A stretch of DNA of 18,746 nucleotides. Origin: Spirochaetes bacterium ADurb.Bin110 (GTDB lineage: Bacteria; Spirochaetota; Spirochaetia; Treponematales; Rectinemataceae). Positions 728-17,750 of the stretch are shown piece after piece (position 1 is the stretch's first letter; every line of letters begins with the position of its first letter). The stretch covers positions 1 to 18,746 of the forward strand of contig MWDY01000276.1 of the NCBI GenBank assembly GCA_002070755.1, read 5' to 3'. The notes under the pieces are model-generated. The model was not told the DNA's origin, searched no databases, and saw nothing but the letters and a program-made list of their open reading frames with translations. The translations under genes were made by a program, and so were the position numbers.

Positions 728-817
728 GGGGACGGAGGTTTAAAAGGATTGATAAGGTCTATGGAGTTTTATGAGAAACCTGTAGGGCTTATGGGGGACC
801 CTATGGGGACAGAGGTT
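728..817 (+). repeat. Two direct copies of the GGGGACGGAGGTT microrepeat in the rsmG-ogt gap
   Basis: Copy one is GGGGACGGAGGTTTAAAAG from 728; copy two is GGGGACAGAGGTTCAAAAG from 805 (one core mismatch). The similarity continues past the core into a T/C-AAAAG extension that also occurs at 1744, so the ancestral unit is longer than 13 bp. The rest of the 677-902 gap shows no credible gene and only a weak 5-bp stem (GTCAA/TTGAC) near 870-886. Confidence 0.85.
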
Positions 818-902
818 CAAAAGATCAATTATTAAGAAGATTCGAGCACCATGAGAAGGACATTTAAGAAGTCAAGCAAGCTTTGACAGCCAAATAGCAG
901 TA

Positions 903-1550
903 TTACCTTTGATAATCTATCGAATAATCCCAAAATTTGGCTCTTTCTATAATCACTTTGTTTGAGCGAATGAGGACGCCTTCGTTTTCGAGAAGAAATC
1001 GCTTCATCGCAATTCCTCCTTGATATCCTGCAAGATTTCCATTTGATGCTACTATGCGATGGCAGGGAATTAGAAGAGGAAGCGGATTATGTGAGAGCGA
1101 TCTTGCAACTGCTCGAAAAGAGAACTGTCTGCTGCAAGCTTTCGCAAGTTCCTTATAACTGCTTATAAAACCGAAGGGGATAGTGGCCTCCATCAAGAGT
1201 ACTTTTTGTTGGAATTCCGGTAGATTAAGATGTGAAAGGGAATCCTTGATGATGTTAATAGGCAACTGCACCGGATGGCCTGAAAGCACATTTAAAATCA
1301 ATTGCAGAATCAGTTCGACATGTTGAGGCAAGTGAACTTTTTTTCTCCATGGCTCTAAGAGATAGAAATCGGTCTTTGCTTGGGCTATTCGGGACACTCC
1401 CTCTTTAGGAAGATAGATACGGTGAACTCTTGGAGCATCTATGTCTTGCCAAATAAGGAGGATATCTCCAAAAGGAGATGGAATACTATGGTAGAATGTT
1501 GGCAAGTGTTGTGGCGATGGCAAAAAAGATGTGCTCAGGCTTTTCATCAT
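903..1550 (-). CDS. ogt: Methylated-DNA--protein-cysteine S-methyltransferase (O6-alkylguanine-DNA alkyltransferase)
   Basis: This suicide enzyme transfers alkyl groups from O6-alkylguanine in DNA to its own cysteine. The C-terminal catalytic domain is clear: the helix-turn-helix start EFQQKVLLMEATIPFG, the arginine finger in FRAVARSL, the asparagine hinge in SHNPLP, then the active-site cysteine in IPCHRIV and the closing NLAGYQGG. The N-terminal part (FYHSIPSPFGDILLIW) fits the less conserved first domain. Neither possible start has a Shine-Dalgarno sequence. The ATG pair at 1550/1547 lies 7 nt after the thrB stop and is preferred, but an upstream ATG at 1589 would add 13 residues and overlap thrB by 32 bp. 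It is the last gene of the thrC-thrB-ogt run. The family call is secure; the start is not. Confidence 0.9.
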   Translation of the reverse strand: MMKSLSTSFLPSPQHLPTFYHSIPSPFGDILLIWQDIDAPRVHRIYLPKEGVSRIAQAKTDFYLLEPWRKKVHLPQHVELILQLILNVLSGHPVQLPINIIKDSLSHLNLPEFQQKVLLMEATIPFGFISSYKELAKACSRQFSFRAVARSLSHNPLPLLIPCHRIVASNGNLAGYQGGIAMKRFLLENEGVLIRSNKVIIERAKFWDYSIDYQR

Positions 1551-1557
1551 ATTTGGA

Positions 1558-2670
1558 CTATTTATTCTGAGAATGACTCTTAAGATCATTGGTACATATT
1601 TTTCTAGTTCTGATTCCTAGGTTGTCAACATTTAGAGGCAAGGCTATCCAATTGTGGGTTGCCTTTTCTGCAATTCGTGTCTCAAGCATTTCATTCAAGC
1701 TCTTTGTTGTACTGGATGTTATGATAGGGATCTTGGGGATATTGGGGACGGAGGTTTCAAAGATTGCCATAATAGTAGGACCAGAGCCTGAGATACAGAT
1801 CATCTTTGCACCTTGTTCGAGACATGCAGTTTTTACTATTTCAAAATCAGGAATAAGAGGTCGACGATATGGTTCGTGGATTCGATCTGAACATGCACAG
1901 CTTAAAAGATTCAGATCAGCCTTAAGAAAAGCCAGAGCTACAAGCGCTGCATGAGAAATACCGTGAACCACATCTTGTCTTGAATAGGAATCTGGAAGAG
2001 CGTTTCGTGCGATGCTTGTTTCAAGAATAAAATCAGGAATTAAAGCTATAAATTGCCAATGCTCAGGAGCTGGATTCTGGCTGATTGCTATACCCTCGTC
2101 GGTGAGCGCTGCAGCTGTAAAACCACCATAGATAGCTGGAGCTGCATTGTCGGCATGCCCCTCGATATCGGTTGCTGCTCTAAGAAGAAAACGCTGATTT
2201 GCTTCTTCGTGTAGAAAGCTTGTTAGATTCGTCAGCTCAACCTCCGTCCCTGTGTAATCTGTTGGGTTAACCTCTGTCCCCAGGCTACCAATCAGATCAA
2301 CATCATCAACCTCCGTCCCTATGCCAGCTAGATCTTGTAGACTCTTGACTTTTTTTCCTGAAAGAAGGAGCGCGGCTGCAGCACCAGCTACAGCAAGCGA
2401 TGCGCTTGACCCAAGACCTCTAGCCGGAGGAATGCCCGTAATGATCTCGACAGAGATTTTGGGGACGGAGGTTTGTAATAGCATACAGCTATGGCGAAAA
2501 GAGCGTAGGAAAAGATTGTCCTCGTTGGCCCATTCTACAGGGCAGCCCTTGATCTGGGTTCTTTCAGCTCGCTCGAAACGCACGATATTCGAAAGAGACA
2601 ATGCTATTCCAAGGCAATCGAAACCTGGGCCAAGATTTGCACAACTAGCAGGAACTTCGATCTCTATCAT
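1558..2670 (-). CDS. thrB: Homoserine kinase, with in-frame microrepeat insertions
   Basis: ThrB phosphorylates homoserine to O-phosphohomoserine, the substrate of ThrC encoded just upstream. GHMP-kinase marks are present: PASCANLGPGFDCLG near the N-terminus, the ATP loop PPARGLGSSA around residues 81-90, IEGHADNAAPA around 169-179, and the C-terminal glycine motif ISGSGPT around 293-299. The start ATG at 2670 has GAGG 6 nt upstream and lies 7 nt after the thrC stop; a start at 2727 would invade thrC. At 370 residues it is longer than usual bacterial ThrB (about 300-320). Much of the excess is a segment at about residues 116-158 holding three GTEV tetrapeptides encoded by the microrepeat; two more copies are read as TSVP at 67-70 and 307-310. 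Whether the enzyme is fully active is not known, but the frame is intact and the motifs are kept. Confidence 0.92.
   Translation of the reverse strand: MIEIEVPASCANLGPGFDCLGIALSLSNIVRFERAERTQIKGCPVEWANEDNLFLRSFRHSCMLLQTSVPKISVEIITGIPPARGLGSSASLAVAGAAAALLLSGKKVKSLQDLAGIGTEVDDVDLIGSLGTEVNPTDYTGTEVELTNLTSFLHEEANQRFLLRAATDIEGHADNAAPAIYGGFTAAALTDEGIAISQNPAPEHWQFIALIPDFILETSIARNALPDSYSRQDVVHGISHAALVALAFLKADLNLLSCACSDRIHEPYRRPLIPDFEIVKTACLEQGAKMICISGSGPTIMAIFETSVPNIPKIPIITSSTTKSLNEMLETRIAEKATHNWIALPLNVDNLGIRTRKICTNDLKSHSQNK
1744..1757 (+). repeat. Microrepeat copy in thrB (read as TSVP)
   Basis: GGGGACGGAGGTTT is an exact core match, with flanks ATATT on the left and CAAAG on the right that resemble the noncoding copies at 728 and 805. 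On the thrB coding strand it is read as Thr-Ser-Val-Pro at residues 307-310, just after the conserved ISGSGPT motif. Confidence 0.85.
2239..2319 (-). repeat. Triplet of in-frame microrepeats in thrB (each read as GTEV)
   Basis: Three copies lie at 2239-2250, 2269-2281 (one mismatch, T for C) and 2308-2319. Start-to-start spacings are 30 and 39 bp, both multiples of three, so each is read in the same codon phase as Gly-Thr-Glu-Val. The intervening residues (DDVDLIGSL and NPTDYT) are acidic or polar and fit no known ThrB motif. Confidence 0.88.
2461..2474 (+). repeat. Microrepeat copy in thrB (read as TSVP)
   Basis: GGGGACGGAGGTTT, an exact core preceded by ATTTT. It encodes TSVP at thrB residues 67-70, just before the beta strand leading to the ATP-binding loop. 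Confidence 0.85.
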
Positions 2671-2677
2671 GAAAACC

Positions 2678-4303
2678 TCATATTGTTGATTTTCTATAGA
2701 CTTGCGATTCGGCAGTCTTATGAACAAAATCAGCTAAGACTGATTCTAGATTCGACTCCTCAACAATCATAGCATGATTTATTTTAGCGGTGACAAGGTC
2801 AGCAATAGGCTTGGGGACAGAGATATCTGTAGAGTTTGAAAGCTCAAAGGCTAGCGGAAGTTCATTATGAGAAATGAGCGAATTTTGAAGATTGCCTTGC
2901 AAAGCTGCAAGGCAGGATTTTGGAAACTTAAAAGGGCTCGCGGTTGCGGCGATGACGATGGGATTGATTGCCTGAGCTTTGATGATCTTACTATCTTTTT
3001 GATGATTTTGCGAATTACCGAAGACTTCATGAGCAACCTTGCAAGCAACTGCGGTATGAGGATCGACAAGCAAATTGTGGACTTCCCACATATGCCGAAT
3101 GCTCTGGAGCGTCTGAAAATCATCAGCCCATCCAGCATAAAAGTCCGATATATTGATAGCAAATTGCTCCGGAATTTGGAAGAAGCCTTCATTTTCGAAT
3201 CGATGCATTAGTCTCGATACGGATTCGGAGTTATTGCCAAAAGCATGATAGAGGAGCCGCTCGAGATTGCTTGAGATGAGGATATCCATTGAAGGACTTG
3301 GCGTTTTATTGAATGCTCTTCTTTTATCATAGATGCCCGTTGCGAAAAAATCATAGAGAATCCTATTAGAATTAGAAGCGCAGACTAGTCTCCGAATAGG
3401 CAGCCCCATCGCCTTGGCATATCTTGCTGCAAGAATGTCACCAAAATTGCCGCTTGGAACAACCACATCAAAGGATCCGTCACAATTAATAGCACCTGCA
3501 AAATATAGATCCCGCCATGCTTTTACATAATATACTATTTGAGGCAGAAGCCTCCCCATGTTTATGGAATTGGCAGAACTGAGCCGAATTCCAAAAAAAG
3601 GAGATCTAGGATCTTTTGCGCTCTGAAAAATATTTTTTGCTTTTCGCTGGGCATCGTCGAAAGTTCCTTTTAGTCCAATAACGCATCGATCTTCAAGAGG
3701 GACGGAGGTCATTTGCAATCTTTGGATTTCACTTGTCCCTTCTGCTGGATATATCACCGCGATGCGGATTCCTTGCTGTCCACCAAGCCCTGCAAGAGCA
3801 GCCGATCCAGTATCACCCGATGTTGCTGTAAGTACGAGAACAGGCTCATCTATACCGCATTTCTCGAGGCTTTTGCTCAATAGTCCTCCAAGAATGCTTA
3901 GTGCGAGGTCTTTAAAGGCGCATGTCATGCCATGAAAAAGCTCGAGTAAGAAAAATTGCGTCGGTTGTTTTTCGTCTCGGTATTCGTTTTTGCAGTCTAA
4001 CGAACCTGCATTCGATAGCAATACTATTTCCGGCGTATCGAACTTCGATTTGTCGCAAGAGGACGAATAAGCTTCTTCGATTAGGGGACGGAGCTCTGCC
4101 TCGCTCCAATCGAACCAAGGCGATAGAACGATCCATGCGAGCTCAGCATAGTTGAGTTTTGGCTCAAAAAGCGCCTCAGGACTCAGTTTGGGGATATTTC
4201 GAGGTACAAAAAGTCCGCCATCTTGCGGCATGCCCTGCACAATCGCTTCGGCTATGCTAACATCGACTTTAGAATCCCTAGTACTCGTATATCTAATAGC
4301 CAT
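2678..4303 (-). CDS. thrC: Threonine synthase
   Basis: ThrC converts O-phosphohomoserine to threonine with pyridoxal phosphate. The N-terminal MAIRYTSTRD, the GLFVP segment, the PLP-lysine motif in ELFHGMTCAFKDLAL (Lys about residue 131), TATSGDTGSAALAGL, SANSINMGRLLPQ and PSGNFGDILAARYAK are all characteristic. The ATG at 4303 is chosen because homology-like sequence begins there; its ribosome site is weak, and an upstream TTG at 4348 would add 15 unlikely residues and run into the terminator. The length of about 541 residues suits the longer, fungal/E. coli-like subfamily but is at its high end. The usual HGPT is HGMT here. Three degenerate microrepeats fall inside the gene (2813, 3699, 4084). 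It is followed by thrB after 7 nt, so the two are probably co-transcribed. Confidence 0.94.
   Translation of the reverse strand: MAIRYTSTRDSKVDVSIAEAIVQGMPQDGGLFVPRNIPKLSPEALFEPKLNYAELAWIVLSPWFDWSEAELRPLIEEAYSSSCDKSKFDTPEIVLLSNAGSLDCKNEYRDEKQPTQFFLLELFHGMTCAFKDLALSILGGLLSKSLEKCGIDEPVLVLTATSGDTGSAALAGLGGQQGIRIAVIYPAEGTSEIQRLQMTSVPLEDRCVIGLKGTFDDAQRKAKNIFQSAKDPRSPFFGIRLSSANSINMGRLLPQIVYYVKAWRDLYFAGAINCDGSFDVVVPSGNFGDILAARYAKAMGLPIRRLVCASNSNRILYDFFATGIYDKRRAFNKTPSPSMDILISSNLERLLYHAFGNNSESVSRLMHRFENEGFFQIPEQFAINISDFYAGWADDFQTLQSIRHMWEVHNLLVDPHTAVACKVAHEVFGNSQNHQKDSKIIKAQAINPIVIAATASPFKFPKSCLAALQGNLQNSLISHNELPLAFELSNSTDISVPKPIADLVTAKINHAMIVEESNLESVLADFVHKTAESQVYRKSTI
2813..2825 (+). repeat. Degenerate microrepeat in thrC (read as ISVP)
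   Basis: GGGGACAGAGATA matches the first ten core bases with one change, then diverges. The coding strand reads Ile-Ser-Val-Pro. The match is weaker than the other copies, so it could be a decayed copy or chance. Confidence 0.5.
3699..3710 (+). repeat. Microrepeat in thrC (read as TSVP)
   Basis: GGGACGGAGGTC matches 11 of the 12 bases in the core. The thrC strand reads Met-Thr-Ser-Val-Pro-Leu in a segment between conserved blocks. Confidence 0.7.
4084..4095 (+). repeat. Degenerate microrepeat in thrC (read as ELRP)
   Basis: GGGGACGGAGCT is exact over the first ten bases. Here the thrC frame reads Glu-Leu-Arg-Pro, a different codon phase from the TSVP copies in the same gene. Confidence 0.55.
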
Positions 4304-4336
4304 GTATAGAGCATACAAAACTCGCAAGAATGAGAA

Positions 4337-4372
4337 AAGCCCGCGCAAGGCTTATTTTCTTGCAGTGGGCTT
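4337..4372 (-). terminator. Rho-independent terminator after ferritin, in the thrC leader
   Basis: On the minus strand AAGCCC, a short bulge, GCAAG, a loop of about 9 nt, CTTGC and GGGCTT form an interrupted hairpin followed by TTTTCTC. It lies 42 nt after the ferritin stop and 34 nt before the thrC ATG. It most simply ends the ferritin transcript. Its position right before thrC also makes attenuation possible, but no threonine-rich leader peptide is visible. Confidence 0.75.
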
Positions 4373-4413
4373 ATGACAGTTCATTTTGGTGATATTAGTG
4401 CAATGCTAGATAC

Positions 4414-4932
4414 TCAGATCTTATTAAAATCAAGCGGTACTGAAGATTCTCGTCTGCCAAGTTCCGCATCTAGCAAATATAATCCCTGAGGAGAATTGCC
4501 GAGTAGATCTATCTTTTGGATTATCTCAATAGCATTTTTCTCTTCCTCGACCTGCTCGTCTATATACCACTGAGCAAGTATCTGTGTAGCATAATCTTTC
4601 TCTGCAATAGCCAATTCCATGATTTCGCGGATGCTAGCGGTTACACTTTCCTCATGGGCAAGCACATGTTGGAAGAGAGGCTTAATTTCTTTTTCTTTGA
4701 ATTCGGGTCTATCGATTTTGGTATATGAAACTTCAGCATTCTGATCGTGCAGATATTCTGCGAATTTAATAGCGTGAAACATTTCTTCATGATACTGCGC
4801 TGTGAGCCATTTCCCTACTCCTGTATAGCCTAGCTCTTTCATTTTTGCAGACATAGCGAGATAGAGATAGGCTGAGTACATTTCTCTATTGATTTGTAGA
4901 TTGATTCGATCGATCATTTTTTGCGATAACAT
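4414..4932 (-). CDS. ftnA: Bacterial non-haem ferritin
   Basis: This is an iron-storage protein that oxidises Fe(II) at a diiron centre and stores ferric mineral in a 24-mer shell. The 172 residues match the usual length. All ferroxidase ligands of E. coli FtnA are seen at the same numbers: Glu17 (INREMYSAY), Glu50 and His53 (YHEEMFHA), Glu94 (AHEESV), Gln127 and Glu130 (DEQVEEEK). The ATG at 4932 has a strong AGGAGG site. It sits between tag and thrC with a candidate promoter (4995-5023), an inverted repeat in the leader and a terminator, so it looks like a single-gene unit. Nothing in the sequence is a recognisable Fur or PerR box. Confidence 0.96.
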   Translation of the reverse strand: MLSQKMIDRINLQINREMYSAYLYLAMSAKMKELGYTGVGKWLTAQYHEEMFHAIKFAEYLHDQNAEVSYTKIDRPEFKEKEIKPLFQHVLAHEESVTASIREIMELAIAEKDYATQILAQWYIDEQVEEEKNAIEIIQKIDLLGNSPQGLYLLDAELGRRESSVPLDFNKI

Positions 4933-4956
4933 ATCATTCCTCCTAATTTATTCAGA

Positions 4957-4979
4957 TAGCATGATTAGATTTCATGCTA
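4957..4979. promoter_or_regulatory. Perfect 8-7-8 inverted repeat in the ferritin leader
   Basis: TAGCATGA, a 7-nt spacer, then TCATGCTA. It falls between the predicted transcription start and the ferritin ribosome site, so it can act either as an operator (half-site centres 15 bp apart) or as an RNA hairpin in the 5' leader. It does not match the Fur or PerR consensus known to me. Confidence 0.55.
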
Positions 4980-4994
4980 AGGCTATGCTCTTTA

Positions 4995-5023
4995 AATATA
5001 ATGTTTTTTATATAAAGCGTAAA
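4995..5023 (-). promoter_or_regulatory. Candidate sigma70-type promoter for ferritin
   Basis: Minus strand: -35 TTTACG, 17-nt spacer, -10 TATATT. The start would fall about 55 nt before the ferritin ATG. The -35 box ends 14 nt after the tag stop, which supports independent expression of ferritin. Confidence 0.55.
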
Positions 5024-5037
5024 ATAGGAAATAGGAT

Positions 5038-5607
5038 TTAGCTAAGATTTGCAATTTCTGCATGTCTAAAGCAACTTATAAGATGATCGTTGATGATGCC
5101 TATGGCTTGCATATGGGCGTATACTGTGATCGATCCAACAAATGAAAAACCGGCTTTTTTCATTTCATTGCTGACCAGATCTGAAAGCTCTGTCTGTGCG
5201 GGGATTTTAGAAATATCCTGCCAATGGTTGACAATTGGGCGGCCCTCGACAAAGTGCCAGATCCAAGCATCAAAGGAACCACATTTTTTCTGAATTGTGC
5301 AGAAAGCGCGCGCATTTTTGACAGCAGCTTCCAATTTTAGTCTGTTTCGTATAAGCCCAGGATCTGAAAGCAAACTAGTCATATCTTTCTCGCAAAAGCT
5401 AGCAACTATCTCTGGCCTAAAATTCGCAAATGCTTTTCGGTAAGCTTCGCGTTTGCCGAGAATAGTTCGCCAGGACAAGCCTGCTTGCTGGGTTTCGAGT
5501 AGCAAGAATTCGAAATGAGTTTGATCATCATGAACGGGGCTACCCCATTCTTCATCGTGATATCGAACATATACTGGGTCGCTTCCACACCATGGGCAAC
5601 GAGTCAT
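5038..5607 (-). CDS. tag: DNA-3-methyladenine glycosylase I
   Basis: Tag removes 3-methyladenine from alkylated DNA by base excision. The 189 residues match the family. The zinc site of E. coli Tag is seen at identical positions: Cys4 (TRCPWCG), His17 (VRYHDEEWG), His175 and Cys179 (DHLISCFRH). Glu38 and Trp46 of the base-binding pocket are present in LLLETQQAGLSW. The start ATG at 5607 lacks a clear Shine-Dalgarno sequence. It is divergent from the exported protein gene at 5743. Together with ogt, 3.5 kb away on the same strand, this gives two alkylation-repair functions close together, although ferritin and thrCB lie between them and no Ada-like regulator is present. Confidence 0.96.
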   Translation of the reverse strand: MTRCPWCGSDPVYVRYHDEEWGSPVHDDQTHFEFLLLETQQAGLSWRTILGKREAYRKAFANFRPEIVASFCEKDMTSLLSDPGLIRNRLKLEAAVKNARAFCTIQKKCGSFDAWIWHFVEGRPIVNHWQDISKIPAQTELSDLVSNEMKKAGFSFVGSITVYAHMQAIGIINDHLISCFRHAEIANLS

Positions 5608-5651
5608 AAAAGCAGAATACCACAGCTATAAATAGGAAAGAAGACGGACTA

Positions 5652-5680
5652 TTGATAGCAAATTAGATATTGTAATATAT
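5652..5680 (+). promoter_or_regulatory. Candidate promoter for the exported barrel-like protein
   Basis: TTGATA at 5652-5657, then an AT-rich segment with ATATAT at 5675-5680 (17-nt spacer). The match is modest and the region is AT-rich, so this is tentative. Confidence 0.35.
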
Positions 5681-5742
5681 TGTCGATTATGAGCTGCTAG
5701 TTCAGCATTTTTCATGCAGATTAAGTAGCATAGGAGGATCGC

Positions 5743-6276
5743 ATGAGAAAAAGCAAAATTGCTATGGTTGCTTGTATGATGATCGTTGCCATATTAAGCC
5801 CTTTGCTTGCACAGAACGTTACAAATGAAGTTCATACCGAACCAGGTGAGATGCATGCTTTGGGAGGAATAGGCTTTGGATGGAGAGGCATTGGGGTAAG
5901 TGGCGGAATAGAATATATCTTGCAGAAATTCAGCATTCCGAATTTTCCTCTTTCGATGGGTGTGATGGCGATTGCCGGCATGGATTTTGGAAGAGGTTTC
6001 GATCTTTCTGCATCTACAATGGCTACACTTCATTGGGGTATGAAAGCCTATAAAGATTTTCCTGAATTTATTAGAAATCTTGACTGGTATATTGGTCTTG
6101 GCATGGGAGTCGGGATCGTTTCCACTTTTGGTTTTGGGATTTCTACCGGAGGCGGATTTTCTTACTATGTGAATGATAAATTTGCTATAGATCTGCATTC
6201 TTACTATATCAATTATTTTGTGGGGGGTGGTTCCGGTTTTAGCGAAACGATTGGAATTCGCTATGCTTTGAAATGA
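5743..6276 (+). CDS. Small exported, probably outer-membrane beta-barrel protein of unknown function
   Basis: I do not recognise a named family. Residues 1-23 form a signal peptide: basic MRKSKI, a hydrophobic core, then LLAQ with a likely cut after LLA. The mature part of about 154 residues is rich in Gly, Phe and aromatics in alternating patterns (GGIGFGWRGIGVSGGIEYIL, STGGGFSYYVN, SETIGIRYALK), as in small outer-membrane barrels. The length would suit about eight strands. The ATG at 5743 has AGGAGG 5 nt upstream. A clear terminator follows, so it is likely monocistronic and divergent from tag. A periplasmic or lipoprotein-like role cannot be excluded; no lipobox cysteine is present. Confidence 0.75.
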   Translation: MRKSKIAMVACMMIVAILSPLLAQNVTNEVHTEPGEMHALGGIGFGWRGIGVSGGIEYILQKFSIPNFPLSMGVMAIAGMDFGRGFDLSASTMATLHWGMKAYKDFPEFIRNLDWYIGLGMGVGIVSTFGFGISTGGGFSYYVNDKFAIDLHSYYINYFVGGGSGFSETIGIRYALK

Positions 6277-6328
6277 GTTCATTGCTTTATTATTGCTATT
6301 TTCATAATTACTTCGGATTCTCATATTG

Positions 6329-6361
6329 CGCACAGCTATAGTTTTGAGCTGTGCGTTTTTT
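6329..6361 (+). terminator. Rho-independent terminator after the exported barrel-like protein
   Basis: CGCACAGCT, a 9-nt loop, AGCTGTGCG gives a perfect 9-bp stem, followed by six T residues. It lies 52 nt after the stop codon at 6276. Confidence 0.9.
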
Positions 6362-6467
6362 GTGGACTTTTGGCTTTATGTTGATCCTCAGCTGATGACT
6401 TCATTTATCGCTTTTTGTGCATTTTCTTAGCCATCTTGATTGGCTATATTTTTGGGCGTCCATAATC

Positions 6468-6594
6468 AAACCTCCGTCCCTAAAGCTTAATCAAACCTCC
6501 GTCCCCAAAATAATCCCTAAGTAAAGCAAGGTGCCAGGCTCCGTCTCAACCTTCAAGGCCGCCAAAATCAAGGAAGATCAAACCTCCGTCCCCC
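6468..6594 (-). repeat. Cluster of three microrepeats in the noncoding interval
   Basis: Copies at 6468-6480, 6493-6506 and 6580-6593, all in the same orientation and all preceded by ATC, giving the extended form ATCAAACCTCCGTCCCC. The first two are 25 bp apart, the third a further 87 bp away. Confidence 0.88.
6530..6547 (+). repeat. GGTGCCAGGCTCCGTC element beside the microrepeats
   Basis: GGTGCCAGGCTCCGTCTC contains a half-palindrome-like GGTGCCAGGC and then CTCCGTC, which is shared with the 13-mer. Phrases of the GGTGCC-nGGCACC type are known from REP-like elements associated with Y1 (IS200/RAYT-type) transposases. The link here is by resemblance only. Confidence 0.4.
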
Positions 6595-6726
6595 AAAAAG
6601 CTCCAAAAAAGCTCCAACAGTCACCTACAATCGCCCAAAAATCACCAAGACAACCAGAGACCTCAAGAACCAAGGCCTATAGACTCTTAGGATATTCTTG
6701 CGATCTCGATGAAGTATGTGCTGAGT

Positions 6727-8847
6727 CTATTCTGGCAAGAGCATACCAGCTCGGAATTGAAGTGTGATGATCTTCGACCCTGAATAACTTGCATAGAAAG
6801 TCATGGTTGCAGGAGCAAGTCCGAAAGCACGAGATTCGAATGAAAAGGACAATCCCGCTGCCCAGTCGTCCATGCGAAAGCTCTCAGTTGATGTGCTATT
6901 CCAGCATGTGTCGAAGAATGGAGCCAGTTCAAAACCTCTCAGGAGCAAGGCTTCTGAAATATCAAAGTATAATTCATGTGGCGAAAATGGGATTTCCACA
7001 TTTGTGATCAAATTGGAGGTCACTGCTTTTCTTGCTGCTGAACTTCTATATCCGTCGTATTTGGATTCCATGAACTCCTGACCATTGAGCGACACCTTCG
7101 AAAAAGCACGAAACTTGGGACTCACCCATTTGGAATCAAATCCTCCTTGGAGAGAGCCATGCAAACCCATTGCATTTTGTAATCCAACAGAGTTTTCCGC
7201 AAAACCTCCTACATTTACTGTGTACCATGGCTGGATAGGAGGGCCTGATTTTTTGTATTTTCTCGGCATCGTTGTCTGAAAAAATGCGCATGTCTGCCAA
7301 TTTGCAATTGAAAAATCCATCTTGAAAAAAATATCGCCTCCAATTTGGAATCCTATTTTCTTTTCTGTGTACGTTTCCATCCAGTTCGTGCGTCCTGCTA
7401 TTTCCCAATAATTAGAGTTATGTGAAAATATAGAAGTTGGGTCATAATCTCCCCATAGGCGAGCAGTAAACCATATGTTAAGGCTGTCTATCGGATTTAC
7501 ACGGAAGGTGGTCTCTATTGCCCAAACCTTTCCTGGGTCTGGGTTAAGAGCATTGAAATAAGATAAATCTGACTTGAACTTCAAATATGAAAAAGCAAGT
7601 GATGCACCTATGCACGCCTCTGTCCCGGTTTCTCCAGGCATCGATGTAAAGGGATCGAAAAGCCTTAGAATCGGTATGCCTCTTAAGATGAGCGAGGTAG
7701 AGGGCTGTTGGCCACTTTGGAGGTCTTTAATAGTCTTGTTAAGATTCTCATGCATTTTGCTACGCAATTCGAATAATCCAGAAGGAGGTGCATTTTCTAG
7801 TTCTTTCCTAGAAATGAGATCTAGTTGCTCAAGAGCATTCTGTGCACTTATTTCGCCTTTTTTTATAATTATGTCAGGGTCAGTAAATTGCATATAGGAT
7901 AGGTTTTCCACATCATTGCGGATTACCAAGGCCTTAGATCTTTCTATTCCTGCCATGCCCGCACGAGTTTTTCCTATATCTACGGAACGGTTGATAACTG
8001 TCACTGGACTCGAAAAGTTCATCGCTCGGTTATAGAAGGCAGTTGAAATCACAAGGCGGTTGCTGAATTGGAGGGCAGGTTCGACAGGCGCAATAGTAGT
8101 AGCTCCTGCATCGATAAGGATAAATTGGTCGAATGCTTGAGGCTCGAAAACAGCTGGCATTGCAAATGCGCTTGCCATGACAAGATCAAATGGACCTTCT
8201 GCTATCCATATCTGCTGTCGAGACTTGAGATCCTCAGCCGTTATGATAATTGGAATCGCTGTCTCAGAGACATCCAGTCTGCCGATTATCTTCCTCAGAG
8301 TAGCCCTGAACATTTCGGTATTGATGAGGCCACCATTTGTGGGTATTACTGGTGTAAAGAAAGACTCGAGCGGGAGCGCTTGAATGAGAAATTCGATGTC
8401 TTGGGGTGAATATCCAGCAGCATATAGCATTCCAACAACAGCTCCCATGGAACTTGCTACAATGAAATCTGGATAAATGCCGGCCTTTTCCAGCGTTTTT
8501 AGTACGCCGATATGCGCATAAGCCCGCGCCGATCCTCCACAGAGTACAATTCCAAGAGGGGGGTGTGGTTGATTGTCCTTGTTTTGATCGACCTCGAGGG
8601 ACTCTGTTTTTTCCTTGAGCCTTGAAATAAACGCCTCTTCTCCTAAGAACACCGGTTTTGTAATATTGCGAAGAGTATCTCCTTTCGGGAAGGCATATTC
8701 GAAATTATTAAAGGATGAAGGTTCTCGAGGGGAAGGCGGATTTTGCTGAGCTTGAAGATTCAAGATTGATAGGGATATTAAGAGAAGCGATAATAGCATA
8801 AGGAGAATCTGGCTGCGAATTCTATACGCATTAGGAATAGCCTTCAT
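6727..8847 (-). CDS. Patatin-like phospholipase with signal peptide and probable C-terminal outer-membrane barrel
   Basis: Residues 1-34 form a signal peptide (basic start, long Leu/Ile core, cut near LQAQQ). The patatin domain spans about 97-300: the oxyanion-loop segment GGSARAYAHIGVL at 104-116, the nucleophile elbow ASSMG with Ser133, and the catalytic Asp246 in LIDAGAT. The elbow and Asp motifs deviate from the usual GxSxG and DGG/DGA but keep Ser and Asp. From about residue 390 to the end (706) alternating polar/aromatic strands resemble an outer-membrane barrel, as in PlpD-type two-domain patatins (type Vd autotransporter architecture). I infer this from pattern and length. The ATG at 8847 follows CAGGAA. 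A microrepeat at 7616 is read as GTEA near the start of the barrel-like part. It stands alone between convergent and divergent neighbours. Confidence 0.88.
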   Translation of the reverse strand: MKAIPNAYRIRSQILLMLLSLLLISLSILNLQAQQNPPSPREPSSFNNFEYAFPKGDTLRNITKPVFLGEEAFISRLKEKTESLEVDQNKDNQPHPPLGIVLCGGSARAYAHIGVLKTLEKAGIYPDFIVASSMGAVVGMLYAAGYSPQDIEFLIQALPLESFFTPVIPTNGGLINTEMFRATLRKIIGRLDVSETAIPIIITAEDLKSRQQIWIAEGPFDLVMASAFAMPAVFEPQAFDQFILIDAGATTIAPVEPALQFSNRLVISTAFYNRAMNFSSPVTVINRSVDIGKTRAGMAGIERSKALVIRNDVENLSYMQFTDPDIIIKKGEISAQNALEQLDLISRKELENAPPSGLFELRSKMHENLNKTIKDLQSGQQPSTSLILRGIPILRLFDPFTSMPGETGTEACIGASLAFSYLKFKSDLSYFNALNPDPGKVWAIETTFRVNPIDSLNIWFTARLWGDYDPTSIFSHNSNYWEIAGRTNWMETYTEKKIGFQIGGDIFFKMDFSIANWQTCAFFQTTMPRKYKKSGPPIQPWYTVNVGGFAENSVGLQNAMGLHGSLQGGFDSKWVSPKFRAFSKVSLNGQEFMESKYDGYRSSAARKAVTSNLITNVEIPFSPHELYFDISEALLLRGFELAPFFDTCWNSTSTESFRMDDWAAGLSFSFESRAFGLAPATMTFYASYSGSKIITLQFRAGMLLPE
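7616..7626 (-). repeat. Degenerate microrepeat in the patatin gene (read as GTEA)
   Basis: GCCTCTGTCCC is the reverse-complement core with one internal change (T for C) and a changed edge base. On the coding strand it gives Gly-Thr-Glu-Ala between MPGET and CIGAS. Confidence 0.6.
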
Positions 8848-11834: not shown

Positions 11835-12521
11835 ATGAACAAGAAAAAACTCTTCTATATTGCTATCTATGCGATAGGGATGGCGTATCTCGAGGCGACG
11901 ATCGTCGTATATCTGAGAGGCTTGTATGGCATTGCTGATCTGATGACCAGTGTGCCGGCATTCGATCCTCAAGTATCGATCATCGAACTGGGGCGAGAAT
12001 TGGCTACGCTCATTATGCTGCTTGCTGTTGGTCTTGCATCTGGCAAGAGACTTCAATCGCAGATTGGGTTTGCCCTTTATGCATTTGGACTCTGGGACAT
12101 TTGGTATTATATATGGCTTGTCGTTTTCATCGGATTTCCTCATTCATTGTTCGATTGGGACCTGCTCTTTCTTATTCCGCTCCCATGGTGGGGGCCTGTG
12201 ATTGCACCCGTTATGATCTCAGTTCTCATGATAATTGGCGGAGCGAGGCTTGCTTTACTTGAGGAAAGAGGTTTCCTGGTAAGGCCTAAATGGCCGGACT
12301 GGGCAATGCTCGCCACTGGGGCTTGCACCATGCTATATGCATTTATGAGCAATGCAATTGCGAGCTTGCCATCTAGCGTGGAAAGCCTTAACGATCTTAG
12401 ACCGAGCTCATTCTTATGGTCAATTTTTCTTGTAGGATATGGAATTGCTACATATGCAATCTGGAGAATTCTATATAAGAGTCTGGATGAACCAGCGATG
12501 CACAGGAGCGGCAGGAATTAG
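11835..12521 (+). CDS. Integral membrane protein of unknown function
   Basis: I do not recognise the family. About six hydrophobic segments are visible: LFYIAIYAIGMAYLEATIVV, LATLIMLLAVGLASG, an aromatic-rich ALYAFGLWDIWYYIWLVVFI, PWWGPVIAPVMISVLMIIGG, WAMLATGACTMLYAFMSNAI and FLWSIFLVGYGIATYAIW. Loops are short and there is no extra soluble domain. The GLWDIWYYIW and PLPWWGPV motifs are the most distinctive. The ATG at 11835 starts a normal MNKKKLFYIAIY membrane N-terminus with GAGG close upstream; an ATG at 11745 would add 30 unlikely residues. Its 3' end overlaps the convergent pdxT gene by 51 bp. The membrane location is sure; the role is unknown. Confidence 0.75.
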   Translation: MNKKKLFYIAIYAIGMAYLEATIVVYLRGLYGIADLMTSVPAFDPQVSIIELGRELATLIMLLAVGLASGKRLQSQIGFALYAFGLWDIWYYIWLVVFIGFPHSLFDWDLLFLIPLPWWGPVIAPVMISVLMIIGGARLALLEERGFLVRPKWPDWAMLATGACTMLYAFMSNAIASLPSSVESLNDLRPSSFLWSIFLVGYGIATYAIWRILYKSLDEPAMHRSGRN

Positions 12522-13055
12522 TTCGGGGTGAAATGTCGCTGCTATTATCGAGCCTTGGCGAATCATTACGGGCTCATCCTGATACATTGCAAGGATCTCG
12601 ACCTCTTTTCCAGAAGCGAGTATGCGTGGTGCTCGTATGAATATGCCTTCTATTTTGCCTATGCTGCTTATGATGGTTTGTACTGGTGCATGAAAGCTAT
12701 CTACTTGACGTCCATAAGCATTGCGCTTGACCCTAATATCTAGGACACCGAGGCTCATTTGATTATTTCCTTCGATATCCTTTGCGAGGAGAATTAAGCC
12801 AGCACAAGTTGCAAGTATTGGCATCCCATTTTCGATTCGGCGCTTGAGTTCCTCGAACATGCCGAAGCGTTCGAGCAGCATGCTCATAACCGTGCTTTCA
12901 CCTCCAGGGATGATAAGTGCGGTCAAGGACTCCAGGTCGGAATAGCGTCGAACTTCTGCGATGTCGCAGCGAGGGAATCCAGCACGCTCAAGGGCTTTGC
13001 CATGAGCTTCGTAGTCTCCCTGAAGCGCGAGAAGTCCTATGCGATGGCTACTCAC
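12471..13055 (-). CDS. pdxT: Pyridoxal 5'-phosphate synthase glutaminase subunit PdxT
   Basis: PdxT hydrolyses glutamine and channels ammonia to PdxS. Class-I glutaminase marks are in place: [12 protein letters not shown] at the N-terminus, PGGEST around residue 50, the nucleophile Cys in [10 protein letters not shown] near residue 84, and the His-Glu of ATFHPEL near residue 176. The GTG at 13055 is chosen because it overlaps the pdxS stop as GTGA (4 bp) with GAGGGG 4-9 nt upstream, a typical coupled start; a TTG one codon earlier is also possible. At its 3' end it overlaps the plus-strand membrane protein gene by 51 bp. No terminator is seen within the overlap. Confidence 0.96.
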
Positions 13056-13957
13056 CAACCCCTCTCTGAGATCTTTTGATTCTCAGCAAGTTCATCAAGG
13101 CCGATGCCGACCATCGGTTCGCCGAGGTCCTCTGAGATCTCTGCAAGGATTTTTGGATCTTTATAATGGACAACTGCTGATACAATGGCTTTTGCTCTGC
13201 GTTCAGGATTGCTTGATTTAAAGATACCCGAGCCGACAAAGACGGACTCTGCACCGAGCTGCATCATCAATGCTGCATCCGCGGGAGTAGCAACGCCACC
13301 AGCTGAAAAATTGGGAACAGGAAGCTTGCCTGTCTTTGCTACTTCCCATACGAGCTCGAATGGTGCGCCTAGCTCCTTTGCTTCAGTCATGAGTTCTTCC
13401 TCCGGAAGGCCAACTAGACGAGCTATTCCATCCCGAACTGTGCGCATATGTCGTACGGCTTCAATGATATCGCCTGTACCTGCTTCTCCTTTTGTGCGAA
13501 TCATGGCTGCACCTTCGCCAATTCGTCGTAGGGCTTCTCCTAGGTCACGGCAGCCACATACAAATGGCACCTTGAAAGGATGCTTATATACATGAAAGCG
13601 ATCATCGGCGGGAGTGAGAACTTCGGATTCATCGATAAAATCGACACCAAGAGCCTCGAGTATCTGGGCTTCTACAAAATGACCTATGCGACATTTTGCC
13701 ATGACCGGAATTGAGACAGCATCTTGAATTTCTTTTATAATCTTTGGATCGGACATGCGAGCAACGCCTCCTTGGACTCTGATGTCGGCTGGTACGCGCT
13801 CGAGAGCCATAACCGCACAAGCTCCCGCCTTTTCGGCAATTTTTGCTTGGGCAGCATTGGTTACATCCATGATAACGCCGCCTCTGAGCATTTCGGCAAG
13901 TCCTACTTTTATATGCCACTGTTCGCTCTGGCGGTCAGACCATAATCTCTGTTCCAT
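13052..13957 (-). CDS. pdxS: Pyridoxal 5'-phosphate synthase subunit PdxS
   Basis: PdxS builds PLP from ribose 5-phosphate, glyceraldehyde 3-phosphate and ammonia in a dodecamer with PdxT. The 301 residues are typical. Catalytic residues correspond to the B. subtilis ones shifted by seven: Asp31 ([11 protein letters not shown]), Lys88 (VMAKCRIGH) and Lys156 ([11 protein letters not shown]). The phosphate loop and the [20 protein letters not shown] and FVGSGIFKS segments are also conserved. The usual AKARIGH is AKCRIGH here. The start ATG at 13957 has GAGGAG upstream. A promoter is likely at 14015-14043. ThrC in this window is one of many PLP users, but no regulatory link is visible. Confidence 0.97.
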
Positions 13958-14014
13958 AATATTATCTCCTCACTGTTGGCGGTGTGGAAGGAATCTGATT
14001 GGTTGCAAGACTAA

Positions 14015-14043
14015 AGATTAGCGAAAAAAAGCTTGTTACGCAA
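14015..14043 (-). promoter_or_regulatory. Candidate pdxST promoter
   Basis: Minus strand: -35 TTGCGT, 17-nt spacer, -10 TAATCT, about 58 nt before the pdxS ATG. The rest of the 219-bp interval before glcD shows only a small inverted repeat spanning the glcD stop (CTAAGC/GCTTAG, 14167-14180). Confidence 0.45.
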
Positions 14044-14176
14044 GGGTTGGAGATGCAGCAGCCCAAGGCATTGTGTTTTCGAGAATCGGGTGCTACGACC
14101 TATCTCGTAAGGACAACTTGGGTTAATCCTGATTATGAGAGACTTTGGAGTAATTCTTGCAACCATCTAAGCGGGC

Positions 14177-15595
14177 TTAGTCTTCAATATCGAAAATCTT
14201 GCCTGGATTCATAATGAGATTTGGGTCCCAAGCGCGTTTGATTGCCTTTATCAGGTTAAGTTCGGCAGGGCTCATGAATTGTTTCATGAAATCCTTGCGC
14301 TTTAGCCCGATGCCATGCTCGCCGGATATTTTGCCGCCAAGTGCAGTGATCGCTTCATAGAGTGCAAGGAGGGCTTGTTGCTCCATGCGTTGCCATTGTT
14401 CCATTGGCATTTGTGGGTCCTTGACGAGAGTGGCATGGAGATTGCCATCTCCTGCATGACCATAACATGGTATTTCAATGCCAAACCGTGAGGAAATGCG
14501 CTCGAGCTCAGGCATAACGGCGGATATAGCCGCAGGCGGCACTACTATGTCCTCGAGGCTCTGAACTGGGCAATAGACTTTTAATGCTTCGGCGATATTC
14601 CTGCGAATAGCCCAGAGGCGCTCTTGGGTTGTGCGGTTGTCGGCGACATATACTTCGATTGCGCCTTGTTCCATGCATAAGTCTCCAACTGCCTCAGCTT
14701 CGCTTTCGACTATGGATTGATCTCGTCCATCCATTTCTATCAGCAGCATCGCACCGCATTGAGCATAGGGCAGATTTTCGTTTAGATAGGCGCAAGATGT
14801 CTCCACGCTCTGGCGATCCATGAATTCGATGGATGTCGGAATGAGACCCTTTGAGAGAATCACGGGGACGGAGGATATGGCTTCCTGAGGGCTTCGATAG
14901 AGTACAAGCAGGTCGGATTTTGCGGCCGGAAGGCCAATCAACCTTATTATGGCAGCAGTCACAATGCCAAGGGTACCTTCGGAGCCAACAATAAGGTGCA
15001 CTAAATCATAACCCGTGACATCTTTTGCAAGCTTGCCTCCGAGCCAGACTACTTCGCCCGTAGGTGTAACGAATTCTAGGCCAAGGATATATCGTGATGT
15101 TACGCCATATTTGATGGCTTTTCCTCCTCCTGCATTTTCAGCTATGTTTCCACCGAGCATACAAGTCTCCAGGCTCATGGGATAGCCAGCGTAGAAAAGC
15201 CCTTTTTCTTTGACTAGGTTATTGATTTCGTTTGTCACGATACCGGTTTCGACGGTCATTGTAAGGTTATCGTAATCGATTTCGCGCACTTGGTTCATCT
15301 TTTCGAGCGACAATACTATTCCGCCGAATATGGGAATGGCACCTCCAGAAAGGCCGCTGCCTGCGCCGCGCGGCGTGATGGGGACGGAGGTTCGATTGGC
15401 AAGTTTGACGATTTCGGCTACAGCGGAAGTCGACCTTGGGGTAACCACCACTTCTGGCATATGGCCATATTCTTCCTTGGAAGTTTCGTCATGCGAAAAG
15501 ATTTCGAGCTGAGCTGGGTCGAGGAGGACATTTCGCTCACCAGCAATATTGATGAGTTCGCGGATTATGTCTTTGCTGACAGGATTATATTTCAT
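14177..15595 (-). CDS. FAD-linked glycolate/D-lactate dehydrogenase (GlcD/LctD type)
   Basis: This enzyme oxidises a 2-hydroxyacid, probably D-lactate or glycolate, with FAD. The N-terminal FAD-binding fold (residues about 45-185) has PEVVVTPRSTSAVAEIVKLA, PRGAGSGLSGGA and the GGNIAENAGGGKAIKYGVT block. The C-terminal FAD-oxidase domain contains YGHAGDGNLHATLV (about residues 385-398) and KISGEHGIGLKRKDF. Length (472) is typical. The ATG at 15595 overlaps the end of the ETF fusion by 11 bp and has AGAGG upstream, so the two are translationally coupled. Gene pairing with EtfAB matches the lactate dehydrogenase/ETF complexes of anaerobes such as Acetobacterium woodii. Two microrepeats are read as TSVP and SSVP in this gene. 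The exact substrate is not decided by sequence. Confidence 0.9.
   Translation of the reverse strand: MKYNPVSKDIIRELINIAGERNVLLDPAQLEIFSHDETSKEEYGHMPEVVVTPRSTSAVAEIVKLANRTSVPITPRGAGSGLSGGAIPIFGGIVLSLEKMNQVREIDYDNLTMTVETGIVTNEINNLVKEKGLFYAGYPMSLETCMLGGNIAENAGGGKAIKYGVTSRYILGLEFVTPTGEVVWLGGKLAKDVTGYDLVHLIVGSEGTLGIVTAAIIRLIGLPAAKSDLLVLYRSPQEAISSVPVILSKGLIPTSIEFMDRQSVETSCAYLNENLPYAQCGAMLLIEMDGRDQSIVESEAEAVGDLCMEQGAIEVYVADNRTTQERLWAIRRNIAEALKVYCPVQSLEDIVVPPAAISAVMPELERISSRFGIEIPCYGHAGDGNLHATLVKDPQMPMEQWQRMEQQALLALYEAITALGGKISGEHGIGLKRKDFMKQFMSPAELNLIKAIKRAWDPNLIMNPGKIFDIED
14864..14874 (+). repeat. Microrepeat in the GlcD-type gene (read as SSVP)
   Basis: GGGGACGGAGG is an exact 11-base core, then AT replaces TT. 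The coding strand reads Ile-Ser-Ser-Val-Pro-Val between the FAD-binding part and the C-terminal domain. Confidence 0.65.
15380..15392 (+). repeat. Microrepeat in the GlcD-type gene (read as TSVP), beside the FAD loop
   Basis: GGGGACGGAGGTT is a full core match. It encodes the TSVP that precedes ITPRGAGSGLSGG, where homologues usually have a Pro preceded by variable residues. The gene length is not increased at this point. Confidence 0.8.
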
Positions 15596-17750
15596 GCTGA
15601 GCCTCTGTGCTCAAAGTTTCTGAGCGCAAAATTGCTGGCTCTTGCGATTTTTTATCTTTGTTCTGATATGGAGAAGGAGAGAAAGAGGTATATGGAGAAC
15701 CAGACCCAGGGCTAGATCCAGGGTCAGGCCCAGATCCGGATCTTGACCCAGACGAAGAGCTATAGATTGACTTCAAGCGCGCCGTCAGCCGCGGCAATAT
15801 CTCGAAGAGATCCCCTATTATAGCTAGGTCTGCGACTGCATGGATTGGCGCATCTGGGTCTATGTTGATCGAAATTATTTTCTTAGCGGTTCGTATGCCC
15901 GCCAAATGCTGAACCGCTCCCGAAATACCTGCGCATATATAGATCTCGGGTGAGATGGTCTTGCCGCTAAGGCCTACCTGATGGGGATAGGATATCCATC
16001 CACGATCTACAGATTCCCGGCTTGCGCCAACCGCTCCGCCGAGAGCCAAAGCCAGATCGCGAATGAACTTAAAATTATCGGCTTTCTTTAGGCCTCTTCC
16101 ACCTGCTACAACGATGCTTGCACCTTCCAGGTTTTCGAAATCCTTAACATTGCTCTCTAGGGCTAGAACCTGGACGGGCAAAGCCAAAGAATCCGAAATC
16201 CTTAAGTCCGAAGATGAGTCATCGATTACATGGATTACACTGCCCTTGCGGCCAAAGTCTGGTGGAAGCGGCTTTATGGAGTGAGGTCGTACTGTGGCCA
16301 TCTGCGGTCTATGGTGGGCGGTTTTTATGGTGGCCATGATATTTCCTCCAATAGCGGGACGTGTCTGGAGAAGAAGTCCGCTGCTCTCTTCGATGGAAAG
16401 CTCGGTACAGTCCGCAGTGAGCCCAGTACCAAGTTTTGCCGCAAGATAAGGCATTAGGGTTCTTCCAGTTGTAGTGGCAGCTCCTAGAATGACTTCAGGT
16501 TTTCTAGCGCAAGCGAGTTTAAAAAGCGCTTTAGACCATAGCTCACATACGAAATCTTTCAGGCTCGGGCTTTCGACTAGAATGACACTATCAGCGCCAT
16601 GGGCAATCAGCATCGCAGCTTCATCTGTAGATGAGGATCCGATTACAATCGCCATCAGGATTGCTCCGCGGCTGTCCGCGAGGGATCGGGCTCTAGCTAG
16701 CAGTTCGAAAGCCACTAGATCGAGCCTACCTGTATGGCGCTCTGCAATAATCCAGAATTCAGGCTTGCCATCGGCTATGGGCCCCGATACAATCTGTTCA
16801 GAAAGAGAAATCACTGACTCCTGCAATGTAGACTGGATTTTAGCCAAGCAGACTCCAGTCTCTGGCTTTTCAACATTCGCTGCCGGATTTATTCCAGAAC
16901 ATCCTCCGTCCCCCATTATTGGACCAATCGTAGAAAGGATGCAGTCTATTGCTTTGTCTATTCCCGATTCATCGAGAGCAATAATTCGCTCTCCACTGCG
17001 CGCTACCTTCGGGTAAAAAATCTTTACTACACGGGTAGGAGATCCTGCTAAACCCACCGAAGCTGGATCGAGATTTATCTCCTTTGCTCCCCAATGCAGA
17101 ATTTCTGCACTTCTGGAGAATTTTTTCCCTCGCAGAGTCGGTAAGCGCGGTGAGGCAATCTCTTTGACTACGGTTAATAGGCATGGGGCTTTGGCTCTTA
17201 CATTTTGGTAGCCTTCTTCGGTAAGGCGACGAACGAGAAATGAAAGCGAGCTAGTACAATTCCGGTCTGACTCAGCAATTATTGAATTTTCTGTTTTGGA
17301 TTCTATTTCCAACGAACTCACATAAGTTAGCGCGGGTATTCCCAACCAAGAGGCTACCGCTGGTCCTACCTGCCCAGTATCGCCATCGGTTGCGCGCTCT
17401 CCTGCAAGGATTAGATCGGCCTTGCCGATATTTCTTATTGCCTCAGCCAGAACCCTAGAGGTAGCCCAAGTGTCCGATCCGGCAAAAGCCTTGTCCGTAA
17501 GCAGAATCGCTTTATCACAACCCATTGCAAGCGATTCTCGCAGTGCGCGTTCGGCATCTGGCGGGCCCATGGAAATTACCGTTACATAGGCTCCGAAACG
17601 CTGCTTCAATATGAGAGCTTCTTCGATCGCATACAGATCGAGAGGATTGATAATGCTTTCTAGCCCCGATCGCACCATAGTTCCTGTTTCGGGGTCCATT
17701 TTGACTTTATCAGTTTCTGGTACTTGTTTGATAAGAACGATTATGTGCAT
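15585..17750 (-). CDS. Electron transfer flavoprotein, EtfB-EtfA single-chain fusion
   Basis: The 721-residue chain carries both ETF subunits. EtfB covers about 1-272: MHIIVLIKQVPETDKVKMD, INPLDLYAIEEAL and the nucleotide loop ERATDGDTGQVGP at 118-130. A linker of about 55 residues follows with no cysteine-rich ferredoxin motif. EtfA covers about 329-660: the FAD site VGASRESVDRGW at 574-585, QVGLSGKT at 591-598, ISGAVQHLAGI at 609-619 and IIGDLFEILPRL. The last 58 residues are a low-complexity Ser/Gly/Pro tail and a charged end. The ATG at 17750 has GGAG 8 nt upstream. It overlaps the dehydrogenase gene by 11 bp. Known: ETFs pass electrons between flavoenzymes, and some bifurcate. Inferred: it accepts electrons from the adjacent dehydrogenase. 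A sequencing frameshift joining two genes seems unlikely, since the whole frame is open. Confidence 0.93.
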   Translation of the reverse strand: MHIIVLIKQVPETDKVKMDPETGTMVRSGLESIINPLDLYAIEEALILKQRFGAYVTVISMGPPDAERALRESLAMGCDKAILLTDKAFAGSDTWATSRVLAEAIRNIGKADLILAGERATDGDTGQVGPAVASWLGIPALTYVSSLEIESKTENSIIAESDRNCTSSLSFLVRRLTEEGYQNVRAKAPCLLTVVKEIASPRLPTLRGKKFSRSAEILHWGAKEINLDPASVGLAGSPTRVVKIFYPKVARSGERIIALDESGIDKAIDCILSTIGPIMGDGGCSGINPAANVEKPETGVCLAKIQSTLQESVISLSEQIVSGPIADGKPEFWIIAERHTGRLDLVAFELLARARSLADSRGAILMAIVIGSSSTDEAAMLIAHGADSVILVESPSLKDFVCELWSKALFKLACARKPEVILGAATTTGRTLMPYLAAKLGTGLTADCTELSIEESSGLLLQTRPAIGGNIMATIKTAHHRPQMATVRPHSIKPLPPDFGRKGSVIHVIDDSSSDLRISDSLALPVQVLALESNVKDFENLEGASIVVAGGRGLKKADNFKFIRDLALALGGAVGASRESVDRGWISYPHQVGLSGKTISPEIYICAGISGAVQHLAGIRTAKKIISINIDPDAPIHAVADLAIIGDLFEILPRLTARLKSIYSSSSGSRSGSGPDPGSSPGSGSPYTSFSPSPYQNKDKKSQEPAILRSETLSTEAQHEI
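15690..15765 (-). repeat. Imperfect tandem repeat encoding a Ser/Gly/Pro tail
   Basis: Degenerate CTGGGTCTGGATC-like units run through this stretch and encode GSGPDPGSSPGSGS. It contains the perfect 12-bp palindrome AGATCCGGATCT at 15732-15743. The units are too diverged for exact boundaries. Confidence 0.6.
16903..16913 (-). repeat. Microrepeat in the ETF linker (read as GDGG)
   Basis: CCTCCGTCCCC is an exact 11-base core. On the coding strand it is read as Met-Gly-Asp-Gly-Gly-Cys, a fourth codon phase, at the start of the EtfB-EtfA linker (about residues 279-284). Confidence 0.65.

Follow-up and report, generated by a model that had tools for sequence, protein, structure and literature searches.

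A dispersed 13-base word gathered around RAYT-like Y1 transposase genes in Rectinema-type spirochaetes

Copies of the word in the window

The DNA analysed here (the window) is a stretch of 18,746 nucleotides, contig MWDY01000276.1 of Spirochaetes bacterium ADurb.Bin110, and its closest relatives are Rectinema-type spirochaetes. The window genes are ordinary metabolic ones, no transposase being found among the 18 window ORFs scanned, and a 13-base word, RGGGACRGAGGTT, is scattered within and between them (Table 1). The first-pass annotation had listed 17 copies, of which 15 stand at two mismatches or fewer (6 exact, 7 with one and 2 with two), against a mean of 0.15 and a maximum of 2 in 200 shuffles of the window; the other two, at 2813 and 7616, are weak near-copies with at least three mismatches each. 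Some of the start positions first given were 1–2 bases off. The 15 better copies divide into 8 on the plus and 7 on the minus strand, and the split of nine to eight originally reported is correct once the weak copies at 2813 (plus) and 7616 (minus) are included. Inspection also confirms that the word contains no stop codon in any of the six frames.

The homoserine kinase encoded in the window carries an in-frame linker that is largely built of motif copies. Among 30 aligned proteins this linker occurs only in the closest relatives (P0001–P0007), with one unit in P0005, which is without the stretch between the motif copies. The site at 2461 in the same gene is present in the related genomes G001, G002, G003 and G004 and also in G005, and is lost in G011, where it shows four mismatches. 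At the other end of the window, a 721-aa ORF (15585–17750) adjoining the FAD-linked oxidase gene contains an ETF-alpha domain besides two stretches of ETF domain, and is apparently a fusion of flavoprotein subunits.

Table 1. Copies and near-copies of the word in the window
Feature	Position	Strand	Context
Motif copy GGGGACGGAGGTT	728..740	+	Intergenic, 3' of rsmG
Motif copy GGGGACAGAGGTT	805..817	+	Intergenic
Motif copy	1744..1756	+	In homoserine kinase gene; TSVP on minus strand; G002 is without 9 nt here
Three motif copies (2239, 2269, 2308)	2239..2320	-	Homoserine kinase linker, read GTEV
Motif copy	2461..2473	+	In homoserine kinase (QTSVP)
Weak near-copy GGGGACAGAGATA	2813..2825	+	Threonine synthase gene
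Near-copy AGGGACGGAGGTC	3698..3710	+	Threonine synthase
Near-copy GGGGACGGAGCTC	4084..4096	+	Threonine synthase
Three motif copies (6469, 6494, 6581)	6469..6593	-	Intergenic
Weak near-copy CGGGACAGAGGCG	7616..7628	-	Patatin-like gene
Motif copy GGGGACGGAGGAT	14864..14876	+	FAD-linked oxidase gene; common to G003 and G002
Exact motif copy	15380..15392	+	FAD-linked oxidase gene
Motif copy GGGGACGGAGGAT	16901..16913	-	Fused ETF gene

Clouds of sites around Y1 genes and their dependence in cis

Genome-scale counts were made on the relatives G001–G012 in place of the window's own genome. The exact word GGGGACRGAGGTT occurs 21 times in G001, 14 in G002, 39 in G003, 64 in G004, 6 in G005 and 10 in G011; the other six of the 12 genomes have none, and the reversed word is absent from all 12. 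Eight of the 30 genomes in the G004 family contain the exact word, the additions to the first six being G317 (7) and G321 (1). In Rectinema and its kin, copies of RGGGACRGAGGTT gather around RAYT-type Y1 (HUH) transposase genes (PF01797), mainly at distances of up to about 30 kb, and the earlier suggestion that a RAYT/Y1-like transposase is involved is thereby borne out. On contig C42 of G004 the cloud extends over 40–90 kb, with a Y1 gene at 63.8 kb; on C4 of G003 it covers 200–254 kb, with the gene at 232.6 kb; copies on C7 of G003 cluster with a gene at 21.5 kb, and further clusters sit on Y1 genes on C55 of G004 and on contigs of G011, G001 and G002. By hand count, 30 kb or less separates 29 of the 39 exact copies in G003 (3.0 Mb) from one of its two RAYT-type genes; the same holds for at least 41 of the 64 in G004 (60 of 64 places listed), where five more share one unplaced 4.5-kb contig, and for 9 of the 10 in G011, provided that C70 and C137 are joined at gene B, as synteny indicates. 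No exact copy was listed on the contig of, or near, the IS200-like PF01797 copies of G003 (two) and G005, the partial match on C13 of G002, or the PF01797 match on the 7.5-kb contig C86 of G004.

Pooled over G004 C42, G003 C4 and G003 C7 (144 copies at one mismatch or fewer), copy density falls with distance from the gene, from 1.08/kb at 0–10 kb to 0.63 at 10–20 kb, 0.48 at 20–30 kb and 0.10 at 30–50 kb, and beyond 50 kb there are 7 copies in all (0 to 0.10/kb per 10-kb bin). The frequency of about one per kb previously estimated from the window thus holds near the transposase gene and fails farther out. Across 10 cloud stretches, the window included, 251 copies at one mismatch or fewer were collected, of which 212 lie in ORFs, 37 between them and 2 at their edges, under a crude ORF model with a coverage of 0.90. 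All six strand and phase classes occur among them, so that the reading of copies in several phases, already remarked in the window, is general.

The Rectinema Y1 proteins are about 160–175 aa long and consist essentially of one Y1 domain. Their PF01797 matches exceed the cut-off, and NCBIfam NF047646 is the best match for the three proteins scanned, at 69.6, 75.7 and 73.8 bits, under the curated 80. His-59, His-61, Tyr-119, Asn-123 and Pro-124 (H-x-H and Y---NP) are invariant in 10 of 10 aligned proteins, which therefore possess the HUH and Y---NP signature of the RAYT/TnpA_REP group. The AlphaFold model has a pLDDT of 88.9, and no PDB sequence match was found at 0.001.

The genes and their clouds occupy two loci, A and B, syntenic between genomes; the word is the same in the two clouds, apart from a somewhat different choice of A or G at base 7. 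By synteny, base 1 of the window corresponds to 205.6 kb on G003 C4, 27 kb from gene A there, and in G001 and G002 the same synteny would place gene A about 19 kb from the window. The window therefore appears to be the edge of cloud A, with gene A predicted some 19–27 kb past its left end, and the declining number of copies along the window is consistent with this position. In G003 a pair of genes adjoins transposase B (L077, 2325–4609), and we take this pair to be IS21-like.

Relatives in which one of the genes is missing reveal what the sites depend on. The A region of G011 lies on one contig with about 80% identity to G003, and the gene A stretch is absent from it, the alignment ending at 232,385 of G003 and resuming at 234,606. 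This region has 5 copies in 100 kb, compared with 53 in 180 kb of G003, whereas the B region of G011 has gene B together with its cloud. Taking as ancestral those G003 sites that are common to a more distant gene-bearing genome (G004, G002 or window/G001 for A; G004 only for B), G011 retains 2 of 24 A sites and 17 of 21 B sites (p = 7e-7), four of the 21 B sites having gone despite the presence of gene B. Since G011, without gene A, loses the A sites and keeps B sites of the same word, maintenance of the sites depends on the linked gene in cis. Neither gene was found in the assembly of G005, which retains 7 of 24 A sites and 8 of 21 B sites (B in G011 versus G005, p = 0.011), the absence of the genes being less certain here because G005 is a MAG with the A locus at a contig break. 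Decay of the sites in G005 is partial, as retention exceeds that of controls for sites taken from G004 C42 (9 of 29, 31%; control 13%), G011 C70 (6 of 12) and the window (2 of 4), and falls below it for those from G003 C4 (12 of 37; control 39%) and G011 C137 (2 of 15; control 21%). G001 and G002 have gene A; gene B was not found in them, and their B-region contigs (10.4 and 4.7 kb) contain no copies. Gene A of G003 is frameshifted, yet cloud A is still present, which requires the break to be recent. Between gene-bearing genomes at 70–74% identity, 56–100% of aligned sites are retained, compared with 7–15% of control 13-mers (12 sets, five with only 2–8 sites).

Within coding sequence the word is maintained as DNA. 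In three pairs of gene-bearing genomes, synonymous change affects 25 of 207 motif codons (12%) compared with 42% of codons elsewhere (p = 1e-20); in three pairs that include a genome without the gene it affects 99 of 251 (39%) compared with 32% (p = 0.02), rates being counted over same-or-synonymous codons and the recently broken gene A of G003 being counted as present. A seventh pair outside the pooled test, G004 C42 and G005, gives 38% in motif codons versus 51% elsewhere, and this residual protection fits partial decay. The suppression of synonymous change in motif codons where the gene is present upholds the early proposal that conservation acts on DNA and not on peptide. After loss, amino-acid change at motif codons rises above background (0.38 versus 0.17 for G003–G011; 0.24 versus 0.17 for G003–G005), suggesting that the word carries some cost in the encoded protein. 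In almost every comparison the sequence flanking the sites is conserved below the average, and the sites therefore occupy tolerant stretches.

Turnover of the sites proceeds largely by substitution. Toward genomes without the gene, 122 of 179 losses are ungapped within 15 bases; between gene-bearing genomes 42 of 76 are ungapped and 34 gapped (overlapping comparisons are summed in both sets), while control positions are 81–96% ungapped, i.e. 4–19% gapped. As the majority of losses are ungapped, substitution is the commoner route, with indels still over-represented relative to controls. At position 45759 of G003 C7, TARGRRFGIKLSNTL is read in both of the genomes compared, in open frames 1080 and 1085 codons long, and codon choice alone accounts for the word occurring in just one of them. 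Added or removed DNA is seen at 1744 of the window (9 nt) and in the homoserine kinase linker with its three copies. Spread by insertion, as originally envisaged, is therefore supported in part only: the excess of indels at losses speaks for it, the ungapped majority and a site that differs through codon choice alone against it. An insertion element body around the word was ruled out, as the flanks of 230 copies show weak preferences only, beside the motif.

Interpretation and comparison with known systems

The data are best read in terms of a domesticated HUH nickase and, linked to it, a cloud of putative recognition sites. On balance, if by no great measure, we favour the view that a RAYT-like Y1 HUH nuclease probably recognises the word and that the word is kept via linked transfer. 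The Y1 enzyme would recognise and nick single-stranded DNA at the sites, and nicking would promote recombination or conversion of the surrounding stretch upon meeting a homologous chromosome; the sites may be kept because the DNA linked to them is co-transferred or converted. The benefit would be limited to sites on the fragment that carries the gene and, as only such sites profit, changes that create a site would be favoured near the gene and not far away, so that linked transfer would explain both the distance limit and the cis effect. The outcome would be an element that has no ends and is inscribed in core genes, in part through codon choice; some sites are gained or lost by substitution alone and others, as in the homoserine kinase linker, via added DNA. 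Several observations weigh against this reading: there are PF01797 matches with no cloud, the copies of GGGACAGAGC in G224 (below) gather in more than one place, cloud A of G003 outlasts the frameshift in its gene, G005 shows incomplete decay, G011 has lost four B sites in spite of gene B, and gaps are in excess at polymorphic sites. If linked transfer holds, a class of boundary-free mobile element lies hidden in codon choice, and the codon and protein evolution of neighbouring genes would be biased. We can more tentatively entertain a selfish element without ends, consisting of one HUH nickase gene and dozens of putative recognition sites that would spread and persist together by linked recombination, the sites having been made for the most part through minor changes to the core genes around them. 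Were this true, codon choice over some 60 kb of host genes would be shaped by the element. The RAYT-like genes here would have a cognate word, visible only when tens of kilobases are examined, for which the relatives supply a natural knock-out experiment.

Other explanations fit parts of the evidence. That the word is ordinary conserved protein sequence or a product of base composition can hardly be credited: TSVP at the homoserine kinase does recur in relatives, but 15 copies were found where 0.15 were expected, the reversed word is absent from 12 genomes and synonymous sites are constrained, and chance, base composition and peptide conservation are refuted by the shuffles, the reversed-word counts and the synonymous constraint. 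DNA uptake sequences (DUS/USS) are short words that lie in genes on both strands and can come about by substitution. The present word resembles them in being short, non-palindromic, found in genes on both strands and maintained as DNA, but differs in being local to one gene, and the genome-wide Neisseria-type uptake sequence for natural transformation raised in the first-pass annotation is very improbable, since G003 has 39 exact copies in 3.0 Mb, 29 of them near two Y1 genes, the distribution is not genome-wide, and cloud A of G011 is lost while the same word persists at B. ComEC, found in 7 of 9 genomes, is compatible with uptake and is not decisive; it was not found in G001 and G002, which are incomplete and have clouds. 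The word may instead be a site for a nucleoid protein, though such a protein would need to act chiefly in the vicinity of the transposase gene.

A host-useful local system, in which the Y1 protein acts near its place of production and the sites organise or repair the region or restart its replication, would account for enzyme and sites having persisted so long at the two syntenic loci and for the conserved catalytic residues. We nonetheless regard it as rather improbable, as both genes are missing from the G005 assembly and one from G011, and the confinement to about 30 kb around the gene has no evident reason under it. Local copying, whereby the transposase writes micro-copies into nearby DNA and the cloud reflects a balance of insertion and loss, draws on the gapped losses between gene-bearing genomes (34 of 76, compared with 4–19% in controls), on position 1744 and the homoserine kinase linker, and on the preferential formation of REPs near the rayt gene proposed for Thauera in a single report (PMC2817692). 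Set against this, site places are conserved between genomes at 70–74% identity, the flanks do not align as an element, most losses are ungapped and at some sites the only difference lies in synonymous codons, and we judge local copying unlikely, though deserving of attention.

REP/RAYT systems, described by Nunvar 2010 (PMC2817692) and Quentin 2018 (PMC6006769), present the same combination of a low-copy Y1 HUH transposase-like gene and a cognate short repeat. Here, however, the word is non-palindromic, has neither hairpin nor GTAG foot, is flanked by nearly unconserved sequence and lies mostly in genes (212 of 251 copies in ORFs), and it keeps fixed places across species, within a limit of about 30 kb, and decays upon loss of the linked gene. 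TIRYTs (TIRtrons), as outlined by Di Nocera 2013 (PMC3733652), are Y1 genes with terminal repeats of consensus GGGGWSAS, which by inspection the GGGGACAG form of the word fits and the GGGGACGG form misses by one base. For subclasses 2.1 and 2.3, PMC6006769 reports that REP-like sequence was not found, about 1 kb around the genes having been examined, and subclass 2.1 is reported to have a long C-terminal extension (table value 238 aa). The Rectinema proteins (about 160–175 aa) have no such extension, and they are accompanied by tens of sites over 60 kb. An inverted repeat pair flanking the gene was not seen consistently across six Rectinema genes. Rickettsia palindromic elements, cited in PMC3733652, likewise lie within reading frames but are longer inserted palindromes, whereas the word here has 13 bp, is non-palindromic and is often substituted in place. 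The exact 13-mer was not found in the literature searched, nor was anything closer among the matches listed on RAYT, RAYT with GGGGAC and spirochaete uptake sequences, and TIRYT is named in two papers; in the portions of that literature covered, clouds of in-gene sites kept in cis were not found, and the published precedents are RAYTs, terminal repeats of the GGGGWSAS kind and a single comment about repeats in the neighbourhood of the gene.

Words around Y1 genes in other spirochaetes and on plasmids

Relatives of protein B occur in 67 of 296 spirochaete genomes, and 30 Y1 genes, chosen among the matches listed for long contigs and spread, were surveyed. Many of them have a local word of their own (GGGACAGACCC, GGGACAGAGCT, GGGACAGACAC, GGGACGGTGGT, GTGTCAGACAC, GCTCAGAGTAA, GGGTCAGAGC and others). 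Two Y1 genes of G075 differ in this respect, GGGACAGACCC occurring 14 times at C16 and 0 at C1, and GGGACAGAGCT 6 and 21 times. In the complete genome G224, the 69 copies of GGGACAGAGC form not one cluster but several, and 17 copies lie no more than 10 kb from the Y1 gene at 788 kb. Scored per 20 kb, the best dispersed 9-mer has a median of 7.5 copies in the 30 Y1 stretches, compared with 5 in 17 controls (p = 1e-4); the top control (13 copies), a CRISPR-like array retained in the rank test, is exceeded by one of the 30 and the next control (8) by 12. This outlier (L075, 312.7–314.9 kb of G003 C4) comprises about 24 units with a 66-base period. A related core in the top 9-mer (CAGA or ACGGT on either strand, defined after looking) is found in 16 of 30 Y1 stretches and in none of the 17 controls, the other 14 genes having no strong related word.

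Y1 genes are found at both syntenic loci of G318, a genome from which GGGGACRGAGGTT is absent. It carries dense clouds of RGGGACRGAGS instead, mostly ending in GAGC (23 copies in one stretch of 15.0 kb, 38 in another of 15.7 kb), so that word and protein are both shifted, and most of its single sites do not align with those of other genomes.

In other phyla, 15 plasmid records matched and six Y1 loci were examined. Twelve copies of GGGTCAGAGTT lie in about 4 kb at the Pseudoalteromonas locus (L216) and 14 copies of AGGGACGGTTCT across 20 kb at that of Acetoanaerobium (L214), and the remaining four loci have no strong word. At four of the six (L212, L214, L215 and L216), the Y1 gene is flanked on each side by inverted words no more than 1 kb away. 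The Acetoanaerobium locus also has three inverted AGGGACGGTTCT pairs, with copies about 78 bases apart, an arrangement that is REPIN-like. Among the spirochaetes, a second and unrelated dispersed word, GCGATAGTTAC, accompanies GTGTCAGAGC around two Y1 genes of G044 and G019 (L176–L177 and L202–L203), and near 2.11 Mb of G224 (L162–L163) a Y1 gene is surrounded by GGTGACTGTCACC, which is palindromic, unlike the non-palindromic words.
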